From Aquificaceae bacterium (GTDB taxonomy: Bacteria > Aquificota > Aquificia > Aquificales > Aquificaceae): DNA of 64,000 nt. The notes under the pieces were generated by a model. That model saw nothing but the letters and a program-made list of their open reading frames with translations, did no database searches and had not been told where the DNA came from. The stretch lies in contig JALWVU010000065.1 of the NCBI GenBank assembly GCA_027079305.1, forward strand, positions 1 through 64,000, given 5' to 3'. Made by a program: the position numbers and the translations under genes. Below, piece after piece: positions 29,134 through 43,205 of the stretch (positions within the stretch are counted from its first letter, which is position 1; every line of letters begins with the position of its first letter).

Positions 29134-30894
29134 ATGTCTTGGATAAACAGGGCTACGGTAGACAGACTCAAGCAGGAGTTCAAGGAGGACCTGAGCGTCC
29201 AGTGGGGCGAGAACGCGGTAAGCCTCGAGATCTCCCACATAAAGCTCAAGGACTTCCTGAAACATCTGAAGGAGAAGGAGAGGTTCCTCCACTTCGTGGA
29301 CATGACCTGTATAGACTTCCCCGAGGATCCGAAGAGGTTCCAGGGGGTATACATCCTCTACAACCCCGACGAGAACGAGAGGGTGATAGTCAAGTCCTGG
29401 GCCCAGAACGGAAAGCTCCCTACGGTCTCGGACCTATGGCCCGGGGCTAAGTGGGCGGAGCGCGAAGCCTACGATATGTTCGGCGTCGAGTTCGAGGGGC
29501 ACGAAAACTTAAGAAGGATGTTCATGTGGGAGGGCTACGAGCACTTCCCCCTAAGGAAGGACTTTCCCCTCGAAGGGATCCCAGAGCAGGAGCTTCCCTC
29601 TCTTACAGAGGTTCTACACGGGAGGACCGATCCTCCCTCCCACGACTACGAGGTCCTCCACACCAAGGTTCCCACCTTAGAGGATCTCGAGAGAACGGAG
29701 AAGGCCCGCCTGAAGAAGAAGGCCCAGCTCGTTCTCAACTGGGGCCCCCTCCATCCAGGGACTCACGGGACCATATGGTTTCTGTTCGACCTTGAGGGAG
29801 AGTTCGTGGAGCAGAGCGACGTGATCCTGGGTCAGCTCCACAGGGGGATGGAGAAGCTGGCGGAGAACCTCTACTACTTCCAGTTCCTCCCCTACACGGA
29901 CAGGATGGACTACATCTCCGCCATCTGCAACGAGCTCTCCTACGTTACCGCGGTAGAGAAGCTTCTGAAGGTTGAGGTCCCCGAGAAGGCACAGTACATA
30001 AGGACCATGTTCGCGGAGCTCCAGAGGATAAACTCCCACCTCCTCTGGCTCGGGACTGGGGCCCTGGATCTGGGAGCCCTTACAGTATTCCTGTATGCCT
30101 TCAGAGAGCGCGAGAAGATAATGGACATAATAGAGGGGAACGCAGGATACAGGCTCACCACCTGCTTCCTGAGGATAGGGGGAGTTCACTACGATCTCGC
30201 CGAGGGAACTCTGGACGTTGTCAAGGCCTTCATAAAGGACTTCCCCAGCAGGCTCAAGGAGTACCACATGCTCCTCACCAGGAACAGGATATGGCTCAGG
30301 AGAACCAAGGATGTGGGAGTGATCACAAGGGAGGACGTCCACGCCTACGGCCTCTCTGGCCCCGTGGCGAGGGGATCTGGAGTTCCATACGACATAAGAA
30401 AGCTGGAACCTTACGCCGCCTACGAGGAGGTGGATTTCGATATCCCCGTGGGAGAGGTGGGGGACGTATACGACAGGTATCTGGTCAGGATGGAGGAGAT
30501 GGCCCAGAGCGTGAGGATAATAGAGCAGTGCGTTGAGAAGCTCGAGAAGATGCCGAAGGACGCCCCCTACCTGAACAAGGACCATCCGGCGGTCATACCT
30601 CCCAAGGAAGACGTCTTCATGACGCTCGAGGACATGGTCCAGTCCTTCAGGGTGGTGGTTCACGGGGAGAACGCCCCTCCTGGGGAGGTCTACTCCTCTG
30701 GAGAGAATCCGAGGGGTGAGCTGGGCTTCTACATATACTCCAGAGGGGGTAGCAGGCCCTACAGGCTGAGGATAAGGTCAGGGGCCCTGTACAACCTCTC
30801 CATCTTCCCCAAGCTGATAAAGGGGAGAACCATAGCGGACGCGATAGCCCTCCTCGGAAGTTTAGATCCCGTGGTGGGGGAGACGGACAGATGA
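29134..30894 (+). CDS. nuoCD: NADH-quinone oxidoreductase subunits C and D, fused (cluster 1)
   Basis: A 586-residue fusion. Residues about 1-155 are NuoC (FLHFVDMTCIDFP, VKSWAQNGKLPTVSDLWP, AEREAYDMFGVEFEGH). Residues about 190-586 are NuoD (LNWGPLHPGTHGT with the quinone-site His, then LGQLHRGMEKLAE, YTDRMDYIS and GEVYSSGENPRGELGFY). The linker region matches other NuoCD fusions. The stop overlaps the Uma2-like gene by four bases (ATGA). It forms the quinone-binding part of the hydrophilic arm. Confidence 0.96.
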   Translation: MSWINRATVDRLKQEFKEDLSVQWGENAVSLEISHIKLKDFLKHLKEKERFLHFVDMTCIDFPEDPKRFQGVYILYNPDENERVIVKSWAQNGKLPTVSDLWPGAKWAEREAYDMFGVEFEGHENLRRMFMWEGYEHFPLRKDFPLEGIPEQELPSLTEVLHGRTDPPSHDYEVLHTKVPTLEDLERTEKARLKKKAQLVLNWGPLHPGTHGTIWFLFDLEGEFVEQSDVILGQLHRGMEKLAENLYYFQFLPYTDRMDYISAICNELSYVTAVEKLLKVEVPEKAQYIRTMFAELQRINSHLLWLGTGALDLGALTVFLYAFREREKIMDIIEGNAGYRLTTCFLRIGGVHYDLAEGTLDVVKAFIKDFPSRLKEYHMLLTRNRIWLRRTKDVGVITREDVHAYGLSGPVARGSGVPYDIRKLEPYAAYEEVDFDIPVGEVGDVYDRYLVRMEEMAQSVRIIEQCVEKLEKMPKDAPYLNKDHPAVIPPKEDVFMTLEDMVQSFRVVVHGENAPPGEVYSSGENPRGELGFYIYSRGGSRPYRLRIRSGALYNLSIFPKLIKGRTIADAIALLGSLDPVVGETDR

Positions 30895-31424
30895 GCGTGA
30901 AGGAGAAGCTTCTGACCTACGAGGACATAAGCGAGCTTCCTGGAGAGGGGTTTTACGAGGTTATAGAGGGGAGGATACTTGAGATGGCTCCATCGGGAGG
31001 AGTGCACGGGTTTTATGAAGCAGGCCTGGCCCATGAACTGCTCAAGAAACTGTCCAAGAAGGGCTACGTTCTCGTAGGCGAGGTGGGTCTGGTTATAAAG
31101 AAGAATCCGCTCACTATCAGGGGTGCTGATGTTGTGTTTATCTCCAAAGATAAAGTGGAGAAGCTCCCCGAGGGGTTCTTAGAAACTCCTCCCGACCTTG
31201 TGGTGGAGATACTCTCGAAAGATATCCCCTTTGAGTATATGGAGGGGAAGATAAAGGACTACATGGATTTCGGCGTGGGGAGGATACTTCTAATAGATCC
31301 TGGGATCAGGAAGGTGACCTTGATAGACGAGGAGAGGAGGATACAGATAAAGGGCTTCGATGAGGAGGTGGAGGTTCTTCCAGGGCTCAAGCTCAGGATG
31401 TCGGAGCTGGGAGGTTCTGAATGA
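30891..31424 (+). CDS. Uma2 (DUF820) family PD-(D/E)xK nuclease-fold protein, in nuo cluster 1
   Basis: A 177-residue protein with the Uma2 pattern: an N-terminal LTYEDISELP and YEVIEGRILEMAPSG, then RGADVVFIS, PPDLVVEILS and IKDYMDFGVGRILLIDP, which place the Asp, Glu and Lys residues of a PD-(D/E)xK-like core. Its role is unknown; relatives are cyanobacterial Uma2 proteins of uncertain nuclease activity. It is locked between nuoCD and nuoH by ATGA overlaps at both ends, so it is translated with complex I. A different Uma2 gene occupies the same position in cluster 2. Confidence 0.9.
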   Translation: MSVKEKLLTYEDISELPGEGFYEVIEGRILEMAPSGGVHGFYEAGLAHELLKKLSKKGYVLVGEVGLVIKKNPLTIRGADVVFISKDKVEKLPEGFLETPPDLVVEILSKDIPFEYMEGKIKDYMDFGVGRILLIDPGIRKVTLIDEERRIQIKGFDEEVEVLPGLKLRMSELGGSE

Positions 31425-32443
31425 GCGAGTTCGTGGTCTCGCTGGTAATAACGCTGATAAAGATAGGTGTCCTGCTGGGGGTGGCCCTCGGTCTGGGGGC
31501 GTATCTGACCTGGGTGGAGAGGAAGCTGGCGGGTCACATACAGGCGAGACTGGGCCCCACGGTGGTCGGTCCCTTTGGATTACTTCAGCCCCTTGCGGAC
31601 GGCCTCAAGCTGATGACCAAGGAGTCCATAATCCCCAAGGGTGCGGACGTTCCCGTCTACTACCTGGCCATAATGATGGCGGTCGCCCCCGCCATACTTC
31701 TCTTCTCCGTGATCCCCTTCGGCCCCGAGTTCAGGATCCTCGGATACGAGATAAAGCCCATAATCTCGGACGTGAACATAGGGCTTCTGGTGGTCTTCGC
31801 CATGGGGTCGCTCGCGGTCTACGGGACCATATTCTCGGGATGGGCCTCCAACTCCAAATACGCCTTCATAGGGTCTCTGAGAAAGGCGGCGGTGATAATA
31901 GCCTACGAGGTGGTTCTGGGTTTTTCCGTCCTCGGGGTGATATTGCTTGCGGGGACCATGAGCACCACGGGCATAGTGGAGGCCCAGATGGAGAGGGGGG
32001 TGTGGTTCATCTTCTACCAGCCCGTCGCCTTCATACTCTACCTCTTCTGCATGCTCGCAGAGTCTGGCAGGGTTCCCTTCGACATACAGGAGGCGGAGGC
32101 TGAGCTGGTCACGGGCTACAACGTTGAATACGGGGGGATGAGGTTCGGGGCCCTTCCCCTCGCGGAGTGGTATCTGAACACGGTGGCCCTTTCCGCCATA
32201 GCGGTGGTCCTCTTCTTCGGCGGATGGTCAGGCCCCAACATACTCGGTCCGATCTCTCCCTACTTCTGGTTTCTGGCCAAGACCTTCGGGCTCGTCTTCT
32301 TCGTTCTCTGGCTCCACTGGACACTCCCCAGGTTCCAGGCCAAGGACGTGACCGAGATAGCTTGGAAGATAATGCTCCCCCTGGCCCTTGCGAACGTTCT
32401 GATCACCGCTGTGGTAGTCTACATCTTCGGAGGTGCAGGATGA
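31421..32443 (+). CDS. nuoH: NADH-quinone oxidoreductase subunit H (cluster 1)
   Basis: A 340-residue membrane subunit with eight or nine helices. It connects the quinone cavity to the proton channels. Diagnostic segments are LTWVERKLAGHIQARLGP, LLQPLADGLKLMTKE, DVNIGLLVVFAMGSLAVYG and ESGRVPFDIQEAEAELVTGYNVEYGG, whose acidic loop lies in the quinone and proton pathway. The start overlaps the Uma2 stop (ATGA) and the stop overlaps the nuoI start in the same way. Confidence 0.96.
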   Translation: MSEFVVSLVITLIKIGVLLGVALGLGAYLTWVERKLAGHIQARLGPTVVGPFGLLQPLADGLKLMTKESIIPKGADVPVYYLAIMMAVAPAILLFSVIPFGPEFRILGYEIKPIISDVNIGLLVVFAMGSLAVYGTIFSGWASNSKYAFIGSLRKAAVIIAYEVVLGFSVLGVILLAGTMSTTGIVEAQMERGVWFIFYQPVAFILYLFCMLAESGRVPFDIQEAEAELVTGYNVEYGGMRFGALPLAEWYLNTVALSAIAVVLFFGGWSGPNILGPISPYFWFLAKTFGLVFFVLWLHWTLPRFQAKDVTEIAWKIMLPLALANVLITAVVVYIFGGAG

Positions 32444-33045
32444 GGATAAAGAGGCTCTCGAGGAAGGACTACCTGAACCTTATAGAGGCCATCTTCTTCA
32501 TAGACTTCCTCAAAGGCCTTTCGGTAACGCTCAGAAATTTACTGAGAAAGCCCATAACCACCGAGTATCCCAAGGAGAAGCTCACTCCTCCCAAGAGGTT
32601 CAGGGGAGCCCACGGACACTTCGTATGGGACGGAAAGGAGCCAGACTCTCTCAAGGCCATAGAGAAGTTCATGAGTTTCGAGAGGGGCAAGAGCAGGTGC
32701 GTCGCCTGCTACATGTGCCAGACCGCCTGTCCCATGCCCACTCTCTTCAGAATAGAGGCGGTCCAGCTCCCAGACGGGAGGAAGAAGGTGGTCCGCTTCG
32801 ACATGAACCTGCTCAACTGCCTCTTCTGCGGGCTCTGCGTGGACGCCTGCCCTGTTGGGTGTCTCACGATGACGGATCTCTACGAGCTTGCGGGCTACTC
32901 GAGGAGGGACGAGGTCCTGAGGATGGACAGGCTCGAACAGCACGGGATAGACTTCTCCAGAAGGAGAGGGGACGAGCCAGACAGGATATGGCCCGACGAC
33001 AGGGAGCGTGAGAAACTCTGGGGGAAGATAGAGTGGAGTGGGTGA
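32440..33045 (+). CDS. nuoI: NADH-quinone oxidoreductase subunit I (cluster 1)
   Basis: A 201-residue ferredoxin-type subunit holding clusters N6a and N6b. The two CxxCxxCxxxCP motifs are RCVACYMCQTACPMP and NCLFCGLCVDACPVG. The N-terminal amphipathic helix contains FFIDFLKGLSVT. ATG 32440 overlaps the nuoH stop; a longer open frame from 32167 would lie inside nuoH and is not used. It relays electrons from the peripheral arm to NuoB. Confidence 0.96.
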   Translation: MRIKRLSRKDYLNLIEAIFFIDFLKGLSVTLRNLLRKPITTEYPKEKLTPPKRFRGAHGHFVWDGKEPDSLKAIEKFMSFERGKSRCVACYMCQTACPMPTLFRIEAVQLPDGRKKVVRFDMNLLNCLFCGLCVDACPVGCLTMTDLYELAGYSRRDEVLRMDRLEQHGIDFSRRRGDEPDRIWPDDREREKLWGKIEWSG

Positions 33046-33521
33046 TCTTCGGAGTTCTGGCCTTCTGGCTTCTGGTCTCGGTGCTCGGTGCGGTTCTTGT
33101 TAAAAATCCCGTTCACTCCATCCTCTTCTTCCTCTCCTCGGTCCTGGCGATGGCGGGGCTCTTTCTGAGCCTTGGTGCTGAGCTTCTTGCGGGGCTCCAG
33201 ATAATCATCTACGCAGTCGCCATAGTGGTCTTCTACGTCCTCGTTATAACCACGATCCCCTGGGAGAAGGTGAAGAGGTTCGAGGGGGTATACAAGAAGG
33301 AGCTCCTCTTCGGTATCCCCGTGGTTCTGGTTATCTTCCTCCTGATGGGGTCCATGGTCCTGAGGGGCAGGTTCGCCCAGCCAGTTGGCGTGGTTGAGGA
33401 CAACGTGAGAGAGGTGGGAAGGACGCTCTTCACCTCCTATCTCTTTCCCTTCGAGGTGGCTTCAGTTATACTTTTAGTCGCCATGATAGGGGCTATCCTC
33501 TTAGGGAGGAAGGAGGAATGA
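33033..33521 (+). CDS. nuoJ: NADH-quinone oxidoreductase subunit J (cluster 1)
   Basis: A 162-residue membrane subunit with five predicted helices. LLAGLQIIIYAVAIVVFYVLVI forms the conserved third helix with the pi-bulge Tyr and Ala positions. The start is probably GTG 33033, overlapping nuoI by 13 bp; the stop overlaps nuoK as ATGA. It forms part of the E-channel of the membrane arm. Confidence 0.93.
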   Translation: MEWVIFGVLAFWLLVSVLGAVLVKNPVHSILFFLSSVLAMAGLFLSLGAELLAGLQIIIYAVAIVVFYVLVITTIPWEKVKRFEGVYKKELLFGIPVVLVIFLLMGSMVLRGRFAQPVGVVEDNVREVGRTLFTSYLFPFEVASVILLVAMIGAILLGRKEE

Positions 33522-33820
33522 CCTTAGAGAAGGCCTACATACTGCTCAGCATACTCGTCTTCCTGATAGGATTGCTCGGCGTGATAGCGAGGAAGAACCT
33601 GATAACGATGCTCGTTAGCACGGAGATAATGCTAAACGGCGTGAACCTCACGCTCGTTGCGGTGGATAAGGTTCTCGGGAGGGTGGACGGTCAGATCTTC
33701 TCCTTCTTTACCTTGACGGTCGCCGCCGCCGAGGTGGCGGTCGGTCTCGGTCTTGTGGTCGCCATCTTCAGACTGAGGGGATACGAGGGTTCCTCCGAGA
33801 TAGTCCATCTGAGGGATTGA
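33518..33820 (+). CDS. nuoK: NADH-quinone oxidoreductase subunit K (cluster 1)
   Basis: A 100-residue, three-helix subunit. The conserved glutamates lie in STEIMLNGVNLTLVA (helix 2) and VAAAEVAVGLGLVVAI (helix 3). RKNLITMLVSTE is the family signature. ATGA overlap with nuoJ and 3 bp to nuoL show tight operon packing. It forms the antiporter-like E-channel together with NuoJ and NuoH. Confidence 0.96.
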   Translation: MTLEKAYILLSILVFLIGLLGVIARKNLITMLVSTEIMLNGVNLTLVAVDKVLGRVDGQIFSFFTLTVAAAEVAVGLGLVVAIFRLRGYEGSSEIVHLRD

Positions 33821-33823
33821 GGA

Positions 33824-35752
33824 ATGGAAGGTATCTTCGTTCTTCTGATGCCCCTTCTTGCCTTCTTGATTGTGGCCTTCTTCGGAAGGCGCATAGGGGA
33901 CCTCACGAGCGGGATAGTGGTGGTCCTCGGAGGAGCCTTCTCCTTCGTTTTCTCCCTTTACATGGTTTTCAAGTCCCTCCACTCTCCTGTTCAGATCAAG
34001 CTCTACGAGTTCCTTCCCTTAGAGGGATACACACTCACAGTGGGCTTCTACTTCGATCCCCTGTCCTCAATAACCGCCGCGGTGGTTACATTCGTCGCAA
34101 CCTTGATATTCGTCTACTCCATCGGCTACATGCACAACGAGTTCGGCAAGTGGGTCTACAAGTTCTACGCATACCTGTCCCTCTTCCTCTTTGCCATGCT
34201 CCTCATAGTTCTTTCCGACAACCTGCTGGGAATCTTCTTCGGATGGGAAGGTGTGGGGCTGGCCTCATACCTACTGATCGGCTACTACCACAACCAGAAA
34301 AAGGCCACAAACGCCTCCCTGGAAGCTTTTGTAATGAACCGAATAGGTGACTGGCTCTTTATCTTCGGGATAATTGCCACCTTTCTCATCTTCAAAACGC
34401 TCGACATAGTGGAGATCTTCGAGAGAGTCCCCACAACAGAGAGCGCCCTGATAGGTTTAGCGACTCTCCTTCTCTTTGGAGGGGCTGTGGGAAAGTCGGG
34501 ACAGCTTCCCCTCCACACCTGGCTTCCCAACGCCATGGCTGGTCCAACGCCCGTTTCCGCCCTCCTGCACGCGGCCACGATGGTAGCTGCGGGAGTTTAC
34601 ATGGTCGCAAGGCTCTATCCCCTCTTCGAGTCAGCTCCCCAGACACTGAAGGTGGTGGCGGTGATCGGGGGACTGACCGCCCTCTTTGCGGCTCTCGCTG
34701 CCACCTCGCACACGGACATGAAGAAGATAATAGCCTTCTCCACCATGTCCCAGCTGGGATACATGTTCCTTGCCCTTGGAGTTGGGGACATGGGTGGAGC
34801 CATGTTTCACCTGACCACACACGCCTTCTTCAAGGCCTTGCTCTTCCTTGCGGCTGGATCAGTGATCACAGCCTTCCACCACAGGCTTTACGACATCTAC
34901 AACTTCGGGGGGCTCAAGAAATACATGCCCATAACGTATGCGAGCTTCACGGTGGGGGCTTTAGCGCTTGCGGGGATATTTCCTCTGTCAGGCTTTTGGT
35001 CGAAGGACAGGCTTATAGGTAGCTACTACGAGGCGAGCTTTGTGTGGGGGCTACTGGGGACTGTGGTGGCCTTTCTGACCGCCTACTACATCTTCAGGGA
35101 AGGTTTTGTGGTATTTCACGGGGAGGAGAGGTACAGGAGGTTCAGTGAGCATGAGCCTCATGAGATGGGTGCAGTGATGACGGTTCCCATGGTGGTGCTT
35201 GGAGTTATGGCGGTGGTAGCAGGATTTTTTGAAGGCTGGTATATGCATGCTATAGGTGGTGAGCACAAGGAGATTCATCTGAACATCGCGGTTACGTCCG
35301 TGAGCGTGGGCCTTGTGGGGATACTGATAGCCTACCTCGTCTTCGTGAGGAGGCTCCTCTCCCCAGAGGGTGCCTACTCCGCCCTGAAGCCCATAGCCCA
35401 GACCTTCAGGGAGCAGTTCTTCACGGAAAAGCTCTACCACAGGGGTCTTGCGAAGGGCTACATGCTTCTCTCCAGGGCCACCTACTTCGTGGGGGACAGG
35501 TTCCTCATAGACGGGAGCATAAACCTATCCTACAGGGGGTTCTTCAGGATGGCCAAGGATGTGTGGAAGGCCTTCGACATAAAGTCCATAGACATATTCA
35601 TCCACTGGCTCGCCACGACCTCCTTCAGGAGCGGGAGGCTCCTTGGTAACCTTCAGACTGGTCTGCTCAACAACTACGTTCTCTTTCTCCTCATAGGGAT
35701 AATCATCATCCTCGGTATAATGCTTTATGCCCTCGACAGGGTGAAAGGGTAA
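33824..35752 (+). CDS. nuoL: NADH-quinone oxidoreductase subunit L (cluster 1)
   Basis: A 642-residue antiporter-like proton-pumping subunit with about 16 helices, including the C-terminal lateral helix. Key residues are visible: Glu in FFGWEGVGLASYL (helix 5), Lys in AVGKSGQLPLHTWLP (helix 7) and His and Lys in AATSHTDMKKIIAFSTMSQLGYM. Residues 50-487 are almost identical, also at the DNA level, to NuoL of cluster 2. The first 49 and the last 150 residues differ strongly. This points to gene conversion between the two genes. Confidence 0.97.
   Translation: MEGIFVLLMPLLAFLIVAFFGRRIGDLTSGIVVVLGGAFSFVFSLYMVFKSLHSPVQIKLYEFLPLEGYTLTVGFYFDPLSSITAAVVTFVATLIFVYSIGYMHNEFGKWVYKFYAYLSLFLFAMLLIVLSDNLLGIFFGWEGVGLASYLLIGYYHNQKKATNASLEAFVMNRIGDWLFIFGIIATFLIFKTLDIVEIFERVPTTESALIGLATLLLFGGAVGKSGQLPLHTWLPNAMAGPTPVSALLHAATMVAAGVYMVARLYPLFESAPQTLKVVAVIGGLTALFAALAATSHTDMKKIIAFSTMSQLGYMFLALGVGDMGGAMFHLTTHAFFKALLFLAAGSVITAFHHRLYDIYNFGGLKKYMPITYASFTVGALALAGIFPLSGFWSKDRLIGSYYEASFVWGLLGTVVAFLTAYYIFREGFVVFHGEERYRRFSEHEPHEMGAVMTVPMVVLGVMAVVAGFFEGWYMHAIGGEHKEIHLNIAVTSVSVGLVGILIAYLVFVRRLLSPEGAYSALKPIAQTFREQFFTEKLYHRGLAKGYMLLSRATYFVGDRFLIDGSINLSYRGFFRMAKDVWKAFDIKSIDIFIHWLATTSFRSGRLLGNLQTGLLNNYVLFLLIGIIIILGIMLYALDRVKG
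33971..35285 (+). repeat. Near-identical nuoL core, copy 1
   Basis: This stretch aligns without gaps to 44870-46184 at a constant offset of 10,899 bases. It includes 185 consecutive identical bases (34127-34311 against 45026-45210) as well as many shared third-codon positions. Identity drops abruptly outside the tract. The borders are approximate, judged by eye. Confidence 0.85.
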
Positions 35753-35758
35753 GGGAAG

Positions 35759-37261
35759 ATGGAGGTGGTAAGGGGAGATTTTCCTTTTGTGAGCCTGTCC
35801 ATAATACTGCCAGCGGTGTCCGCCCTGCTGGTGGTCCTGCTGAGGGAAAGGTATGCTAAAGCGATATCGGTTGTAGGGGCTGGAATAACCTTCCTGCTCT
35901 CCCTGGTGGTTCTCTATCTCTTCGATTACTCGAGGAGCTCGTCGGTCCAGTTCTACGAGGAATACTCCATCCTTAAAGAGTTCAACGTCAAACTTGCCCT
36001 CGGTCTGGACGGGCTCTCCCTGATCATGTATTTCCTCACCACGCTCGTGTCCCTCGTGGCGATCCTCTGGTCCGTGAGGGATAAGCAGATAAGCACGAGG
36101 CTGAAGGAATACTACGTGGCCTTTCTGCTCTCGGAGAGCTTCCTTGTGGGGGTCTTTGCCAGCTTCGATCTCATCGTCTTCTACGTCTTCTACGAGCTTA
36201 CGCTCATCCCCATGCTCTTTGCCATAGGCATATGGGGATACAAGCTCAGGCTCTACTCCGCATACAAGTTCTTCATATACATATTCGTCTCCTCCCTATT
36301 CCTCCTCCTCGGGATAGCCTCCGTCTCCGCCCAGCACTACTTCCAGAAGGGAAGCTTTTCTTTCAGCTACTTCGATCTTCTGAAGCTCAGCTATCCAGAG
36401 GGTCTCGGGATATTCTTCTTCCTCCTATTCTTCATAGCCTTTGCGGTCAAGACTCCCCTCGTTCCCTTCCACACCTGGCTACCAGACGCCCACGGAGAGG
36501 CTCCCACCGCAGGTTCGGTGATCCTGGCAGCCATACTCCTGAAGATGGGGACCTACGCACTCCTGAGGTTCAACGTGGGCCTCTTCCCAGAGGCAACTAT
36601 AAAGCTCATGCCCTTCATGGTGGCGATAGGGATAATCACCATAATCTACGCCTCCTGGATGACCATAGTCCAGAACAACGTGAAGAGGTTCGTGGCCTAC
36701 TCCTCCGTCTCCCACATGGGCTTTATAGTTACCGCCATGTTCCTGCTCAATCACGAGGGCCTGAGGGCTTCCGTTATAGAGATGTTCGCCCACGGGATGA
36801 CGAGCGCCTCCCTGTTTATGATGGCGGGCTTCATCTACAACAGGCTACACACCTTCAACATGAACAGCCTGAGGGGTTCGGTCAAGTTCATGCCTCTCTT
36901 CGCGGTGATAGTGGCCATAACCGCCTTCGCTGCGATGGGCCTCCCTGGAGGCTCCTCCTTCTGGGGCAAGTTCCTGACCATACTCTCCGCGAGGGAATAC
37001 TCCTACACTCTCGCCCTGCTGGTCTTGGTGGGAGGTTTCTTCAGCGCAGCATACGTCCTCTACATGCTCAAGACTCTCTTCCTGGACGTGAAGGAGGAGA
37101 GCATACTGATACACTTCAAGGACATAAGGGGCGTGATGCTCGTCTCTTTCCTCTTCCTGATAGTTCCCATACTTCTGATAGGTTTCTTTCCCCATCTTTT
37201 CTTCAGCATGTTCGACGGCTCTATCGGCTACATACTGAGACACATACTGAGGTTGGAGTGA
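35759..37261 (+). CDS. nuoM: NADH-quinone oxidoreductase subunit M (cluster 1)
   Basis: A 500-residue antiporter-like subunit with about 14 helices. The channel Glu is in FYVFYELTLIPM, the helix-7 Lys in FAVKTPLVPFHTWLPDAHGEAPTAGS and the helix-8 Lys and following residues in VKRFVAYSSVSHMGF. It pumps protons next to NuoL and NuoN. Similarity to NuoM of cluster 2 is only moderate, unlike the nuoL pair. It starts 6 bp after nuoL and ends 1 bp before nuoN. Confidence 0.95.
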   Translation: MEVVRGDFPFVSLSIILPAVSALLVVLLRERYAKAISVVGAGITFLLSLVVLYLFDYSRSSSVQFYEEYSILKEFNVKLALGLDGLSLIMYFLTTLVSLVAILWSVRDKQISTRLKEYYVAFLLSESFLVGVFASFDLIVFYVFYELTLIPMLFAIGIWGYKLRLYSAYKFFIYIFVSSLFLLLGIASVSAQHYFQKGSFSFSYFDLLKLSYPEGLGIFFFLLFFIAFAVKTPLVPFHTWLPDAHGEAPTAGSVILAAILLKMGTYALLRFNVGLFPEATIKLMPFMVAIGIITIIYASWMTIVQNNVKRFVAYSSVSHMGFIVTAMFLLNHEGLRASVIEMFAHGMTSASLFMMAGFIYNRLHTFNMNSLRGSVKFMPLFAVIVAITAFAAMGLPGGSSFWGKFLTILSAREYSYTLALLVLVGGFFSAAYVLYMLKTLFLDVKEESILIHFKDIRGVMLVSFLFLIVPILLIGFFPHLFFSMFDGSIGYILRHILRLE

Positions 37262-37262
37262 G

Positions 37263-38729
37263 ATGGATATAAAGGAGCTTATAGGTCCCATAGAGCTTCC
37301 GAGGCTGGTCCTCTTCCTTCCAGAGCTCATAGTGCTGATAACCGCCTTCGTCCTCTTCACGCTCGATCTCATACTCTCTGGCAGGAGCAAGAGGATAGTC
37401 CTTCCTTCCCTCAGCGCTATAGGATACGTCCTGGCCCTGATGTCCGTAGGGGTCTCCGCCCAGTTCAGGGGGGACACCTTCTACGGGAGCTTCACCAACG
37501 ATGCCCTCGCGTCTCTGGTGAAGATATTCGCGCTCCTGATAGCCCTCACCGTCCTCGCCTTCGCGGGCAGATACTTCTCCTCGAAGAGGTCCTTCTACGG
37601 GGAGTTCTACTACATGCTCGCCTTCACGCTTCTGGGGGCCATGATACTGGCCTCTTCGTATAACCTGATAATCATCTACGTCTCCTTGGAGCTGGTCTCC
37701 ATAGGCTTTTACATACTGACCGCTCTGCTGAGGGGATCCTTCATCTCCAAGGAGGGGGCCTTCAAATACCTCATCCTCGGAGGCCTCAGCATAGCCCTCG
37801 CCTCCTACGGGGCGGTCTTCATGTACATATACGCGGGCTCGATAGATCTGAGGGAGATCTTCACCTATGAAGGTGAGGACTACCACTACCTGGTCCTGGG
37901 CATAGTCTTCTTCCTGATAGGTTTCGCCCTCAAGATAGGGGCGGTCCCCTTCCACTTCTGGCTCCCAGACGCCTACCAGGGTGCTCCCACGCCCGTTACC
38001 GCCTTCATGGCCTCGGTGGGAAAGCTCGCCTTCTTCATCCCCGTGGTAAGGATCATGCCCCTGATCCAGGAGAAGTTCTCCCTAACCTGGACTCTTACCG
38101 TGGGGGTCATAGCGGCCGCAACCATGCTCTACGGGAATCTCGTGGCCCTCGTTCAGAAGGATATAAAGAGACTCCTGGCCTACTCATCCATAGCCCACTC
38201 GGGATACATCCTCGCGGCGGTGGCGGTCACCAAGGACATAGGCATGAAGGCGGTGATCTACTTCCTCGTGGTCTACGCGGTGATGGCGGCGGGATCCTTC
38301 TTCGTAGTGGCCATGCTCGAGAGGGCGGAGGGCTGGGAGAACAGGATCCAGGAGTTCTCGGGCCTGAGGTTCAACCTGCCTTACCTGGCCTTCGGCTTCA
38401 TGATATACATGTTCGCCCTCCTGGGGGTCCCTCCCACGGTGGGGTTCGTGGGGAAGACTCTCGTCTTCATGGCCCTCTCCTTCGACCAGCTCTGGTGGCT
38501 CGCCTTCGTGGTGATCCTCTCCACTGCGATCTCCACGGGATACTACGTAAGGCTCGTGGTTCTCATGTATATGAAGGACAGGGAGAAGGAGGTGAGGGTC
38601 CCCCAGAGGGGCTACGCGGAGGCCCTCTCTTTGGTGTTTCTGACCATACTAACTGTAGCCCTCGCAGTTGTGCCCGAGGTGATATGGTCCCTCGTGGCGC
38701 CAGCTTCGGAAACTCTCTTTGCGAGGTGA
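37263..38729 (+). CDS. nuoN: NADH-quinone oxidoreductase subunit N (cluster 1)
   Basis: A 488-residue antiporter-like subunit, the one nearest the E-channel. The conserved Glu is in IIYVSLELVSIGFYIL, Lys in FALKIGAVPFHFWLPDAYQGAPTPV and Lys in DIKRLLAYSSIAHSGYIL. It closes cluster 1. The nuoA gene of cluster 2 begins 4 bp after its stop, so the two clusters form one continuous run with no visible promoter between them. Confidence 0.95.
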   Translation: MDIKELIGPIELPRLVLFLPELIVLITAFVLFTLDLILSGRSKRIVLPSLSAIGYVLALMSVGVSAQFRGDTFYGSFTNDALASLVKIFALLIALTVLAFAGRYFSSKRSFYGEFYYMLAFTLLGAMILASSYNLIIIYVSLELVSIGFYILTALLRGSFISKEGAFKYLILGGLSIALASYGAVFMYIYAGSIDLREIFTYEGEDYHYLVLGIVFFLIGFALKIGAVPFHFWLPDAYQGAPTPVTAFMASVGKLAFFIPVVRIMPLIQEKFSLTWTLTVGVIAAATMLYGNLVALVQKDIKRLLAYSSIAHSGYILAAVAVTKDIGMKAVIYFLVVYAVMAAGSFFVVAMLERAEGWENRIQEFSGLRFNLPYLAFGFMIYMFALLGVPPTVGFVGKTLVFMALSFDQLWWLAFVVILSTAISTGYYVRLVVLMYMKDREKEVRVPQRGYAEALSLVFLTILTVALAVVPEVIWSLVAPASETLFAR

Positions 38730-38733
38730 GAAG

Positions 38734-39105
38734 ATGGACTACATAGGGTTCCTGATCTTCTTCGTGATAATGCTGGGGATAGCCCTCGTGATGATATCCC
38801 TCAACTGGCTCTTCGGCCCCAGGACTCCTCAGGAATACGAGGACTATCCCTACGAGTGCGGTGTTCCCCTCTACGATGAGAGCGCCCAGACCACCTTCCA
38901 CCAGGGGTATTACCTGCTGGGGCTCCTCATACTCCTCTTCGACATAGAGGCAGCCTTCCTCTTCCCCTGGACGGTGGTCTACAGGTGGCTCGGGGTTTTC
39001 GGCTTCATAGAGATGTTCCTCTTCATACTCATACTCACCTACGGACTCCTATACGCCTGGAGGAAGGGAGCCCTCAACTGGCAGTTTGAGATGGAGGAGG
39101 TATGA
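38734..39105 (+). CDS. nuoA: NADH-quinone oxidoreductase subunit A (cluster 2)
   Basis: A 123-residue three-helix subunit with YPYECGVPLYDESAQ and QGYYLLGLLILLFDIEAAFLFPWTVV, paralogous to the copy at 28209. ATG 38734, with GAGGTGA upstream, is preferred over GTG 38719, which lies inside nuoN. It is the first gene of cluster 2. Its stop overlaps the next small membrane ORF by four bases (ATGA), where nuoB would normally follow. Confidence 0.95.
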   Translation: MDYIGFLIFFVIMLGIALVMISLNWLFGPRTPQEYEDYPYECGVPLYDESAQTTFHQGYYLLGLLILLFDIEAAFLFPWTVVYRWLGVFGFIEMFLFILILTYGLLYAWRKGALNWQFEMEEV

Positions 39106-39347
39106 GCAGGGAGGCTTTGCTGAAAAGAATAGAGGTAGAGCAGGACAGGTTTAAGGTGGGCATGTCTCTCGTGGTTATCGTCACCTCAGGTTTGATAGGG
39201 CTTGTTTTGAAAAGTAAATACTCTGTGAGCGACTACGTTCTTTCCCTCGGTGGGTTGATAATAGACTTTATCTTCATACTCTATACCTTAAAGGTCTACT
39301 TGCAGGTAAATGCCTTACTATCTGAGCTGGAGGAGAAGGATGTTTGA
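39102..39347 (+). CDS. Small membrane protein in nuo cluster 2
   Basis: An 81-residue protein, not recognised. An N-terminal charged helix (REALLKRIEVEQDR) is followed by two predicted membrane helices (about 18-36 and 45-65) and an acidic end. It overlaps nuoA by four bases and the next ORF by eight, so it is translationally coupled. It occupies the place of nuoB. It may be a cluster-specific accessory or assembly factor; that is inference from position only. Confidence 0.7.
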   Translation: MSREALLKRIEVEQDRFKVGMSLVVIVTSGLIGLVLKSKYSVSDYVLSLGGLIIDFIFILYTLKVYLQVNALLSELEEKDV

Positions 39348-39450
39348 TCTTGTTCTTGTTCTTGCGGTTCTGATATCAGTGCTGATGATCTTCTTCGCCT
39401 ACAGATTATACAGAGCGGAAGAAGAGATGCCCCAGAGGAGAGTTCCATGA
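39340..39450 (+). CDS. Very short single-helix membrane protein in nuo cluster 2
   Basis: A 36-codon frame from ATG 39340 to TGA 39450. Residues 4-20 are hydrophobic (LVLVLAVLISVLMIFF), followed by YRLYRAEEEMPQRRVP, a positive-then-mixed tail. GGAGAAGG lies just before the ATG. It overlaps the preceding ORF by eight bases and ends 15 bp before nuoCD. Its tight packing suggests it is translated, perhaps as a stabilising mini-subunit. It is too short to judge by composition alone. Confidence 0.55.
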   Translation: MFDLVLVLAVLISVLMIFFAYRLYRAEEEMPQRRVP

Positions 39451-39465
39451 GATGGAGGAGGTGTA

Positions 39466-41247
39466 ATGCCCTGGGCTAAGGCTGAGGACTTTATAGATCT
39501 GAAGGAGAGGTTTCCCGAACTTGAGATAGTGGAAGCAAAAAACGAGACCTCCCTCCACGTAAAGAAGGAGAACCTCATAGAGCTTCTGAAGGAGCTCAAA
39601 AACAGGGGCTTCAAGCTTTTCATAGACCACTCGGTTGTGGATCTCAAGGAGCTCCTTGAAAAGGAGAAGGACTACAGGAACGCGGTAAAGGAAAAGCTGA
39701 TAGCCTTCCCCGAGGACAGGATTTCCAGGTTCCAGGCCTTCTACATCCTCTACAACGTGGACGAGAGGAAGAGGGTGATAGTGAAGACGAGGACCGAGGG
39801 AAAGCTCCCGACCATAGAGAAGCTCTGGTTCGCTGGAAAGTGGGCGGAGAGAGAGTGCTACGACATGTTCGGTATAGATTACGAGGGGCACGAGAACCTG
39901 GTGCGGGCCTTCATGTGGGATACCTATCCCTACTTCCCCCTCAGGAAGGACTTCCCCCTCGAGGGCTTTCCAGAGCAGGACCTTCCCTCCCTGAACGAGG
40001 TCCTCTGGGGGGACAAGCTCGAGGGGACGATGAACTACGAGAGGAAGCACACCATAGTCCCCACCTTGGAGGACCTCGAGATAACGGAGAAGAGGAGGCT
40101 CAAGAAGAAGGCCCAGATAGTTCTCAACTGGGGTCCCCTCCATCCTGGAACCCACGGGACCATGTGGTTCCTCTTTGACCTGGAGGGGGAGCGTATAGTC
40201 CAGGCGGACGTGATCCTGGGTCAGCTCCACAGGGGCGTGGAGAAGCTCGCAGAGAACGAGATGTACAACCAGTTCCTCGTCTACACGGACAGGATGGACT
40301 ACCTGTCCGCCCTCTGCTCCAATCAGGCCTGGGTGGTCGCCGTAGAGCGGATGCTGGGGATAGAGGATGATGTTCCCGAGAAGGCCAAGTTCATAAGGAC
40401 CATGATGTCCGAGCTCCAGAGGATAAACTCCCACCTCCTCTGGCTCGGGACCTACGCCCTCGACCTGGGAGCTCTCACCATATTCCTCTACGCCTTCAAG
40501 GAGAGAGAGAAGATAATGGACATCCTCGAGGGGATAACAGGTGCAAGACTCACCATCTCCTATCCGCGGGTAGGTGGTGTCAGGATGGACCTTCCCGAGG
40601 GCGCCCTTGAGGTCATCAAAGCCTTCATAAAGAGGTTTCCCAGAGAACTCGACGACTGGGAGAGGATACTCACCAGGAACAGGATATGGCTCAGGAGGAA
40701 CAAGGAAGTAGGTGTTATATCCCCAGAGGACGCCTACTTCTACGGAGTCACGGGGCCTGTGATAAGGGGCTCTGGAATCCCCTACGACATGAGGAAGCTC
40801 GAGCCCTACGATGCCTACTCGGAGGTGGAGTTCGACATTCCCGTCGGAGAGACAGGGGACTGCTACGACAGGTATCTGGTCAGGATGGAGGAGATGAGGC
40901 AGAGTGTGAGGATAATAGAGCAGTGCGTGGCGAGGCTCGAGAGGATGCCCAAGGACGCCCCCTTCTTCGCGGAGGTTCCGAAGGAGAAGAAGATAAAGCT
41001 CACCATAGACGGGATAGGTCTCAAGGTCCCGATGGGAGACATCTACTCCTCTGGGGAGAACCCGAGGGGTGAGCTGGGCTTTTACGTCTTCTCCACGGGA
41101 GGGGTGAAGCCCTACAGGGTCAAGGTCAGGCCCCCCTCCTACTACAACCTGTGCATATATCCGTATCTCATGAAGGACAGGGTGATAGCGGATGCGGTTA
41201 CCGTCCTGGCGAGTATAGATCCAGTTGTGGGAGAGACGGACAGATGA
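39466..41247 (+). CDS. nuoCD: NADH-quinone oxidoreductase subunits C and D, fused (cluster 2)
   Basis: A 593-residue fusion paralogous to the cluster 1 protein. The NuoC part (about 1-180) is somewhat longer and more diverged at its N-terminus (about 1-70). The NuoD part has LNWGPLHPGTHGT, LGQLHRGVEKLAE, YTDRMDYLS and GDIYSSGENPRGELGFY. GGAGGAGGTG precedes the ATG. Its partner NuoB is not encoded in this cluster, so it must bind the NuoB from cluster 1 or one encoded elsewhere. The stop overlaps the second Uma2 gene (ATGA). Confidence 0.95.
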   Translation: MPWAKAEDFIDLKERFPELEIVEAKNETSLHVKKENLIELLKELKNRGFKLFIDHSVVDLKELLEKEKDYRNAVKEKLIAFPEDRISRFQAFYILYNVDERKRVIVKTRTEGKLPTIEKLWFAGKWAERECYDMFGIDYEGHENLVRAFMWDTYPYFPLRKDFPLEGFPEQDLPSLNEVLWGDKLEGTMNYERKHTIVPTLEDLEITEKRRLKKKAQIVLNWGPLHPGTHGTMWFLFDLEGERIVQADVILGQLHRGVEKLAENEMYNQFLVYTDRMDYLSALCSNQAWVVAVERMLGIEDDVPEKAKFIRTMMSELQRINSHLLWLGTYALDLGALTIFLYAFKEREKIMDILEGITGARLTISYPRVGGVRMDLPEGALEVIKAFIKRFPRELDDWERILTRNRIWLRRNKEVGVISPEDAYFYGVTGPVIRGSGIPYDMRKLEPYDAYSEVEFDIPVGETGDCYDRYLVRMEEMRQSVRIIEQCVARLERMPKDAPFFAEVPKEKKIKLTIDGIGLKVPMGDIYSSGENPRGELGFYVFSTGGVKPYRVKVRPPSYYNLCIYPYLMKDRVIADAVTVLASIDPVVGETDR

Positions 41248-41771
41248 GGGAGGTTCGCTACCTTCCCCACTACACCTACGAAGATTACAAGAACTGGCAG
41301 GGAGACTGGGAGCTTATAGAAGGCATACCCGTAGCTCTGGCATCTCCCAAGTACATCCATCAGAGAACGCTGACGCGTCTGGCCTCAGTTCTGGAAGAAG
41401 CCCTTGAGGAATGCGATAAGTGCGACGTGGTGGTGGAGCTCGATTATATAGTATCCCACGATACAATCCTCAGGCCAGACGTTTCCGTTCTTTGTGAGAA
41501 GGTGGATGACTATATACTTAAGGCTCCGAGTATAGTATTCGAGGTGGTCTCCGAATCCACAGCGGAAAGGGATGAAGGGGTTAAGAAAGATATCTACGAG
41601 CGGGAAGGTGTCAAATACTACGTTCTGCTTTACCCTGAGAAGAGGATAGCCAAAATATACAGGAACACGGAAAGAGGATATTTAAAGCTCAAAGACGTAG
41701 ATACAGGGAAACTGGTTTTAGAGCTTAATGAATGCGGTATTGAGATAGACTTTTCCAAGGTCTGGATTTAG
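41244..41771 (+). CDS. Uma2 (DUF820) family PD-(D/E)xK nuclease-fold protein, in nuo cluster 2
   Basis: A 175-residue Uma2 protein: YTYEDYKNWQGDWELIEG, ASPKYIHQRT, ILRPDVSVLC, SIVFEVVSESTAERDEGVK and YYVLLYPEKRIAKIY. Asp, Glu and Lys of the nuclease-like core are kept. It is only distantly similar to the Uma2 protein of cluster 1 and belongs to another branch of the family. The ATG overlaps the nuoCD stop and the gene ends 11 bp before nuoH. The same location in both clusters is striking. No catalytic role is known. Confidence 0.88.
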   Translation: MREVRYLPHYTYEDYKNWQGDWELIEGIPVALASPKYIHQRTLTRLASVLEEALEECDKCDVVVELDYIVSHDTILRPDVSVLCEKVDDYILKAPSIVFEVVSESTAERDEGVKKDIYEREGVKYYVLLYPEKRIAKIYRNTERGYLKLKDVDTGKLVLELNECGIEIDFSKVWI

Positions 41772-41782
41772 GAGGAGGTTTT

Positions 41783-42832
41783 ATGGAGAGCGTAGTGGCA
41801 GGGGTGATCATAGCGATCATAAAGATACTGGTGATCCTTGGAATAGTTCTCGGAGTTGGAGCGTATCTTACCTGGGTAGAGAGGAAGGTAGCAGCCCATA
41901 TACAAAGAAGGCCGGGTCCCATGGTGGTCGGCTGGCACGGACTCCTTCAGCCCCTTGCGGACGGCCTGAAACTGATAACAAAGGAGGATTTATTCCCCAG
42001 ATACGGGAACAAATTCCTATACAACCTTGCCATAGTTCTGGCTCTCGTTCCCGCCACCCTTGTGTTCGCGGTAGTTCCCTTCGGTCCCGAGTTCGAGCTC
42101 TTCGGATACAAGATAAAGCCGATTCTGACCGACGTGAACGTTGGGCTCCTCCTTGTCTTCGGCCTCGGATCTCTGGCTGTCTACGCCATAGCCATAGCGG
42201 GATGGGCCTCCAACTCCAAGTATCCCCTGATAGGTTCTATGAGGAAGGCTGGAATTATCATTTCTTACGAAGTCGTTATAACCTTCGCGGTGATGGGACC
42301 TCTTATACTCGCAGGGACACTCTCTACCTACGAGATAGTTCAGAAACAGATAGAGCAGAACCTCTGGTATGTATGGGTCCAGCCCGTTGCCTTCGTGGTC
42401 TTCATGTTCGCCCTCCTCGCGGAGACAGGAAGGGTCCCCTTCGACATACAGGAGGCGGAAGCGGAGCTGGTTACCGGTTTTACGGTCGAATACGGAGGTA
42501 TGAAGTTCGGACTCTTCCCTCTGGTGGAGTGGTATGTGGAGGTTCTGTCCCTTTCCGCGATAGCGGTGGTCCTATTCTTTGGCGGGTGGTCTCCTATAAA
42601 CATCCCCTTTGTGGGCTTTGTGGATCCCCTCTTCTTCTTGGGGCCTTTTTCTCCCTACGCCTGGTTCCTCCTTAAGGTGACGCTCCTCTTCCTCTTTATC
42701 CTTTGGCTTCACTGGACGCTCCCCAGATACAGGATAGACCAGATAACGGAGACCGCTTGGAAGATAATGCTTCCTCTGACGCTTATAAACATAGTTTTCA
42801 CAGCTGTCATAGCTCCGGTTGTGTGGGGTTGA
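41783..42832 (+). CDS. nuoH: NADH-quinone oxidoreductase subunit H (cluster 2)
   Basis: A 349-residue membrane subunit with LTWVERKVAAHIQRRPGP, LLQPLADGLKLITKED, DVNVGLLLVFGLGSLAVY and ETGRVPFDIQEAEAELVTGFTVEYGG. GGAGG lies about eight bases before the ATG. It is clearly paralogous to the copy at 31421. An extra loop (about residues 265-285) with PINIPFVGFVDPLFFLG distinguishes it. A coiled-coil ORF, not nuoI, follows directly. Confidence 0.95.
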   Translation: MESVVAGVIIAIIKILVILGIVLGVGAYLTWVERKVAAHIQRRPGPMVVGWHGLLQPLADGLKLITKEDLFPRYGNKFLYNLAIVLALVPATLVFAVVPFGPEFELFGYKIKPILTDVNVGLLLVFGLGSLAVYAIAIAGWASNSKYPLIGSMRKAGIIISYEVVITFAVMGPLILAGTLSTYEIVQKQIEQNLWYVWVQPVAFVVFMFALLAETGRVPFDIQEAEAELVTGFTVEYGGMKFGLFPLVEWYVEVLSLSAIAVVLFFGGWSPINIPFVGFVDPLFFLGPFSPYAWFLLKVTLLFLFILWLHWTLPRYRIDQITETAWKIMLPLTLINIVFTAVIAPVVWG

Positions 42833-42863: not shown

Positions 42864-43205
42864 ATGATCGAAAAGGCGAAGGGAATCATAAAGAAGGTAA
42901 CCTTAGAGATGGTATACGAAATAGTTGACGCAAGGACAAACGAGATAAACCACAGGATAGACAAACTTGAGGACAGAATGGATAGACTGGATCAAAAGAT
43001 CGAGGGTGTCAGACAGGAGATGAGACAGGATATAGGCCAGCTCAGGCAGGAGATGGGTCAGCTTCGGCAAGAGATGGGTCAACTGAGACAAGAGGTGAGT
43101 CATTTCAGGCAGGAGATAGACCGTCTCGATGATAAGATAGACAGGGTTAACCAGAGAATAGATACGGTGATCCAGATGCTATCAGAGATTATAAGGAGAA
43201 CTTAA
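42864..43205 (+). CDS. Coiled-coil protein with tandem heptads
   Basis: A 113-residue protein with no recognised family. From about residue 25 to the end it is a continuous coiled coil, with three perfect or near-perfect copies of the heptad GQLRQEM. The N-terminal 25 residues (KGIIKKVTLEMVYEIVDA) form an amphipathic helix. A TAATCT box lies six bases before the ATG and there is no ribosome-binding site, so it may have its own leaderless promoter. It interrupts the nuoH-nuoI junction of cluster 2. Scaffold or structural roles are possible but not shown. Confidence 0.75.
   Translation: MIEKAKGIIKKVTLEMVYEIVDARTNEINHRIDKLEDRMDRLDQKIEGVRQEMRQDIGQLRQEMGQLRQEMGQLRQEVSHFRQEIDRLDDKIDRVNQRIDTVIQMLSEIIRRT
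43038..43121 (+). repeat. Tandem 21-bp repeats encoding a heptad
   Basis: Three adjacent 21-base units (43038-43058, 43059-43079, 43080-43100) encode GQLRQEM-type heptads with a few substitutions, and a weaker fourth unit follows (43101-43121). The copies probably arose by slippage or unequal exchange, so copy number may vary between strains. Confidence 0.8.

Follow-up and report, generated by a model that had tools for sequence, protein, structure and literature searches.

The two Uma2 (DUF820) genes located between nuoCD and nuoH in the two complex I gene clusters of this heat-loving member of the Aquificaceae are, with a probability of about 0.6, operon-lodged accessory nucleases with a switchable helix, that is, old but changeable passengers of these operons and not parts of complex I. 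This interpretation is favored because the genes seem to combine a constant, selected core with a single tuned helix, have no antitoxin next to them, appear to be coupled to housekeeping genes and belong to lineages in which loss is tolerated.

Two Uma2 genes at the nuoCD-nuoH junctions

The window, that is, the entire 64,000-nucleotide stretch of DNA that was analyzed, carries both nuo clusters on the forward strand. Cluster 1 has the gene order nuoA-nuoB-nuoCD-Uma2-nuoH, in which the Uma2 gene (30891-31424), encoding a protein of 177 amino acids (P0001), is joined to nuoCD (29134-30894; Pfam Complex1_30kDa and Complex1_49kDa) and to nuoH (31421-32443; Pfam NADHdh) by four-nucleotide ATGA stop/start overlaps at 30891-30894 and 31421-31424, respectively. 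In cluster 2, the order is nuoA-(81-aa ORF)-nuoCD-Uma2-nuoH, and the Uma2 gene (41244-41771; P0002, 175 amino acids) shares an ATGA overlap (41244-41247) with nuoCD (39466-41247; the same two Pfam domains), whereas towards nuoH (41783-42832; NADHdh) there is no overlap but a gap of 11 nucleotides with a GGAGG ribosome-binding site for nuoH. Direct reading, in agreement with Pfam, bears out the preliminary description of both junctions, and its further remarks, that the two proteins are distant from each other and keep an Asp/Glu/Lys pattern, hold as well: the sequences are about 25% identical, and D79, E100 and K114 (P0002 numbering) are invariant in an alignment of 21 sequences. Orthologues occupy the corresponding junction in another 12 genomes in the case of P0001 and in another 13 in that of P0002. 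For each slot, conservation of the nuoCD-Uma2-nuoH arrangement extends to further genomes from three genera, which makes it more than a matter of chance.

Both proteins are members of the Uma2 family (PF05685; 72.7 bits for P0001 and 80.2 bits for P0002, with a cut-off of 27). The AlphaFold model of P0002 (pLDDT 84.5) is closest to the solved structures 6okh, 9y1l, 3ot2 and 1wdj, with TM-scores of 0.66-0.84, and its best PDB matches are all of the Uma2/DUF820 type; P0001 shows sequence matches to 9y1l, 6okh and 1wdj. Both proteins have the PD-(D/E)XK fold, P0002 by the model and P0001 by sequence match, and, going by what is known of the family, the product is most likely a nuclease of this type that acts as a solo toxin or against invaders. 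The literature searched holds no demonstration of nuclease activity for any Uma2 protein, and no invader target of Uma2 was found. The ORFs and Pfam matches identify NuoCD and NuoH as the immediate neighbors at both slots, with no antitoxin-like gene at either, so that the adjacent antitoxin by which a type II toxin-antitoxin system is recognized is missing from both.

The nuo clusters of the window show several further features. The sequence ATGAGCG is present at both ends of the cluster 1 Uma2 gene (30888-30900 and 31418-31430) and could be a trace of insertion; considered as a target-site duplication, this repeat is not significant as it extends only 3 nucleotides beyond the forced ATGA. 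Cluster 2 lacks nuoB between nuoA and nuoCD (38719-41247), the only nuoB seen being that of cluster 1. The 81-aa ORF that lies between nuoA and nuoCD of cluster 2 (39102-39347) has no Pfam match; a relative occupies the same place in genome G010 (58% identical), with matching inserts in G062 and G063 and weaker relatives elsewhere in the window's genus. Between nuoH and nuoI, cluster 2 carries a coiled-coil gene (42864-43205) that is peculiar to the window's genome in this position; as this genome contains several homologous stretches elsewhere, the gene, too, belongs to a multi-copy family.

Distribution, origin and loss of the nuo-associated genes

A search of 136 Aquificota genomes, most of them incomplete assemblies, with both Uma2 and both NuoH proteins, combined with mapping of the gene order in about 110 nuo neighborhoods, reveals site-specific lineages: genome-wide, P0001 has nearly all of its best matches at cluster 1 junctions, and P0002 has its top matches at cluster 2 junctions. 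Among the Aquificaceae, the nuoCD-nuoH junction is occupied by Uma2 in 13 of about 49 copies of cluster 1 and 14 of about 44 copies of cluster 2, that is, in less than a third of the junctions examined, and none of the nine clusters examined in the sister family Hydrogenothermaceae carries Uma2 at this position. The occupied cluster 1 junctions belong to the window's genus (G000, G010, G016, G019 and G022), a second genus (G062 and G063) and a third one (G035, G036, G037, G042, G045 and G046); cluster 2 is occupied in G000, G010, G011, G021, G062, G063, G035, G036, G039 (a truncated copy), G040, G041, G044, G045 and G046. Insertions longer than 150 nucleotides in the Aquificaceae nuo clusters are confined to the junctions A|B or A|CD, CD|H and H|I; Uma2 occupies CD|H in either cluster, and G035 and G036 have it at H|I of cluster 2 as well. 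In these two genomes (loci L219 and L221), cluster 2 nuoH is flanked by Uma2 genes on both sides, with two per side in G035.

In a tree of 108 Uma2 proteins, the cluster 1 copies (CDH1, including P0001) form one clade (support 95/96), the cluster 2 copies (CDH2, including P0002) form another one together with the H|I copies (93/97), and the two belong to different deep subfamilies, with many Uma2 genes from outside nuo between them. Forcing CDH1 and CDH2 into a single clade costs 159 log-likelihood units (AU test, p = 4e-16). Because each slot has a clade of its own and a single origin is rejected, the sequences indicate that two different Uma2 genes colonized the nuoCD-nuoH slots independently, neither of them being a product of cluster duplication. 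Thus, of the two histories considered in the preliminary description, independent recruitment is upheld, whereas one insertion that preceded the duplication of the nuo cluster, followed by divergence of the copies at a faster rate than that of the nuo genes, can hardly be maintained. The latter scenario would account for the identical position in both clusters, but it conflicts with the rejection of the joint clade under the model used and with the nesting of non-nuo Uma2 genes between the two lineages, and most lineages that possess both clusters have no Uma2 in either. A group of 13 very long-branched sequences (icd-cfi type, with an extended N-terminus) fell inside CDH1 in the first quick tree; removal of these sequences restored the CDH1 clade, and their placement is treated as long-branch attraction.

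In the NuoCD/NuoH tree, the carriers of Uma2 form two non-sister groups, one comprising the window's genus and its neighbor, and the other one the third genus, which is located near what we take to be Thermocrinis-like lineages. The Uma2 clade of each slot largely follows this split, the exception being the cluster 1 copy of G000, which groups weakly with the third genus (89/87). Each lineage is represented in two separate parts of the Aquificaceae, and both are therefore old: either both slots were filled early and then emptied in many lines, or there was one old transfer per slot.

Uma2 has been lost from the nuo operons repeatedly and is dispensable there. In cluster 1 of G041, the interior of the Uma2 gene has disappeared and only its first ~11 and last ~13 codons are left; similar remnants are present in both clusters of G043 and in cluster 2 of G039; in all these cases, the reading frame of nuoH is intact. 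In G009, G013 and G020, the remnants are no more than suggestive. This frequent, clean loss is hard to reconcile with the possibility that Uma2 is an addiction module that stabilizes its operon, as has been proposed for a DUF820 gene in the hox operon of Synechocystis (PMC4963859). Apart from that published proposal, the location inside essential operons and the suggestion that Uma2 is a solo toxin (PMC2701414) are compatible with such a role, but given also that no antitoxin-like gene is found at either slot, addiction appears rather unlikely.

The dN/dS values for the whole Uma2 genes are mostly 0.06-0.34, several times those of nuoCD and nuoH in the same pairs (0.01-0.09). Outside the helix block discussed below, the Uma2 genes are subject to purifying selection, and these dN/dS values, together with the invariant Asp, Glu and Lys residues, suggest that a function is retained.

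Uma2 genes in other operons and the link to complex I

The window's genome yields 17 Uma2 matches, nearly all of which are wedged between the cistrons of other operons. With the neighbors identified from protein N-termini and not by database search, Uma2 genes separate por subunit genes, sucC from sucD and feoB from dnaB, occur around thiG, follow aspS and gcvPB, precede proA, adjoin a molybdopterin oxidoreductase gene and, in several cases, lie between icd and a biotin-carboxylase gene (icd-cfi). The por, molybdopterin oxidoreductase and aspS sites are also used in other genomes. Of the 83 Uma2 genes in eight genomes, 61 are closely embedded, with neighbors on the same strand within 30 nucleotides on both sides, compared with 22 of 52 control genes, where the controls are genes of the window, itself operon-rich, the gene caller is a simple one and tandem arrays are included. 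The number of Uma2 genes varies from 0 to 27 per genome.

Two further loci deserve mention. At locus L268, four N-terminally extended Uma2-like genes of a very divergent subfamily are interleaved with OsmC-like and DUF262-like ORFs, and the array is flanked by isocitrate dehydrogenase-like and biotin-carboxylase-like genes. At L267, a Uma2 gene of the window's genome is split into two frames and apparently in decay.

The preliminary description suggested that the shared position pointed to a link with the assembly, regulation or quality control of complex I, and named a scatter of Uma2 genes over operon junctions without enrichment in nuo as the finding that would speak against it. That is largely what is observed: the scatter is evident, and the excess in nuo is at most weak, the nuo seats amounting to 2 of about 17 Uma2 genes, which is above the share of nuo genes but was noticed after the fact. 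With Uma2 present in many unrelated operons and repeatedly lost from nuo, the suggested link is not supported. It can still be argued that Uma2 serves complex I, through assembly, regulation of the nuo mRNA or removal of faulty subunits, and was recruited twice where a factor was needed between nuoCD and nuoH. The same slot is used in both clusters, each lineage is kept across genera, G042 yields no Uma2 match other than its nuo copy, and Uma2 genes are also seen in nuo operons outside Aquificota, namely, in an Anaerolineales genome (nuoF-ATGA-Uma2; L115, 7730-8353) and in a Poribacteria genome, where two of the 28 Uma2 matches in total lie between nuoD and nuoE (L154, 8231-9094 and 10453-11226), as well as in the hox operon of Synechocystis (PMC4963859). 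Nevertheless, a role in complex I is improbable. Uma2 does not co-occur regularly with complex I, as would be expected of an accessory subunit or assembly factor: most Aquificaceae nuo clusters are without it, as are all those examined in Hydrogenothermaceae, and there are deletion scars with an intact nuoH. Moreover, G009 and G018, both from the window's genus, possess the two nuo clusters and lack Uma2 altogether, most Uma2 genes reside in unrelated operons, and Uma2 evolves under a dN/dS several times that of its nuo neighbors. The recurrence at nuoCD-nuoH in both clusters and the insertions in the Anaerolineales and Poribacteria nuo operons leave room for some affinity to the operons of redox complexes.

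The exchanged helix and the relation to known Uma2 systems

The main variable element of these proteins is a stretch of ~15-20 residues after a conserved H/HQ motif. Both within nuo and at other sites, copies that are otherwise almost identical have this stretch replaced as a whole, while the catalytic residues remain unchanged. In P0002, the exchange-prone element comprises about residues 41-56 (41364-41411, forward strand) and largely coincides with the helix 37-53 of the model. Clear cases are cluster 1 of G062 compared with that of G063, and the two tandem copies in cluster 2 of G035. In 19 close, near-independent pairs, drawn from sites in nuo as well as elsewhere and all within Aquificota, to which the analysis of exchange was confined, pN is 0.20 inside the block versus 0.037 outside (~5-fold), and pS is 0.47 versus 0.30; in the strongest pairs, synonymous change reaches 0.7-0.8 in the block compared with 0.1-0.5 outside. 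Because synonymous change is raised in the block as well, tract replacement appears to be involved and not just fast point mutation. In a sliding-window analysis, six of the seven significant divergence peaks fall at P0002 residues 45-50, inside the model helix. The mean identity of the block in close pairs is 0.36 for paralogues within a genome, a value based on 9 non-independent pairs from few genomes, versus 0.74 between genomes. A search of the collected sequences for a gene that could have donated the exchanged helix found none.

The variability of the helix might reflect a loose structural constraint combined with ordinary gene conversion. Alternatively, the helix could set the target or the dimer partner of the nuclease, two options that the data do not separate. 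A bolder extension, which we regard as tentative, is that Aquificota maintain a repertoire of operon-housed Uma2 nucleases the specificity of which is reset by exchange of one helix, that is, a diversification system distributed over housekeeping operons including that of complex I, in which paralogues would be kept from cross-pairing or given different targets.

The behavior of the helix also bears on the idea of homing, in which Uma2, as a selfish nuclease, would cleave the unoccupied stop/start junction and insert a copy of its own gene there. The clean insertion at such junctions, the patchy occupancy with widely varying copy numbers and the repeat that flanks the cluster 1 copy are all reminiscent of homing. 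This idea is disfavored, and we consider it very improbable, because the helix changes drastically while the host junction does not, the opposite of what would be expected of a nuclease tied to one target; besides, each site harbors one old lineage that has been passed on in a broadly vertical manner, as opposed to repeated invasion, and the flanking repeat barely exceeds the overlap itself.

If these genes are indeed accessory nucleases lodged in operons, the following course of events can be proposed. Uma2 genes of Aquificota would enter housekeeping operons at stop/start junctions and would rely for their expression on translational coupling with the gene upstream, after which each junction would keep its own Uma2 lineage. 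The nuoCD-nuoH slots of clusters 1 and 2 would each have been colonized once, by different Uma2 subfamilies, before the carrier genera diverged or no later than through a single old transfer into each slot. Subsequently, the genes would have been inherited mostly vertically, with many deletions, tandem duplication in one genus and replacement of the single helix. The PD-(D/E)XK nuclease would act as a solo toxin or against invaders, and by determining the target or pairing partner of the nuclease, the switchable helix would keep co-resident paralogues distinct.

Few gene families without a known role are as strongly expanded as Uma2 in cyanobacteria and Thermus and, as found here, in Aquificota; expansions have been reported in Thermus (PMC1274311) and Thermosynechococcus (PMC9403480), and a role as a solo toxin, with paralogues arranged in cassettes, has been considered likely (PMC2701414). 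Fixed seats in operons of core metabolism, combined with change mainly through one helix, may provide a handle on the function of Uma2, in the form of a constant catalytic core with one tuned surface. The case is also a warning that position in an operon is not equivalent to functional partnership, which would have led to the mis-assignment of these genes to complex I.

The genes analyzed here share with the described Uma2/DUF820 proteins (PF05685, COG4636; PD-(D/E)XK superfamily) the family, the fold, the catalytic Asp/Glu/Lys residues, the high copy number and the tandem cassettes of paralogues. They differ in forming site-specific lineages at fixed operon junctions, including those of nuo, and in the exchange of a single helix; the open papers searched mention neither Uma2 genes within nuo operons nor an exchange of this kind. 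The DUF820 gene sll1222 of Synechocystis, for which the addiction role was proposed, is located inside the hoxEF-hoxUYH operon (PMC4963859) and is similar in its placement within the operon of a multi-subunit redox complex, the diaphorase subunits of which are related to NuoEF, but the operon and the phylum are different, and the operon of sll1222 contains a toxin-antitoxin pair. The closest parallel in the same bacterial family is aq_1194 of Aquifex aeolicus, an operon-lodged Uma2 gene in a different operon, the PFOR gene cluster, the product of which was hardly or not detected in a proteome study and was absent from the PFOR complex or band (PMC10052474); a Uma2 gene at the por site is present in the window's genome as well (L258).
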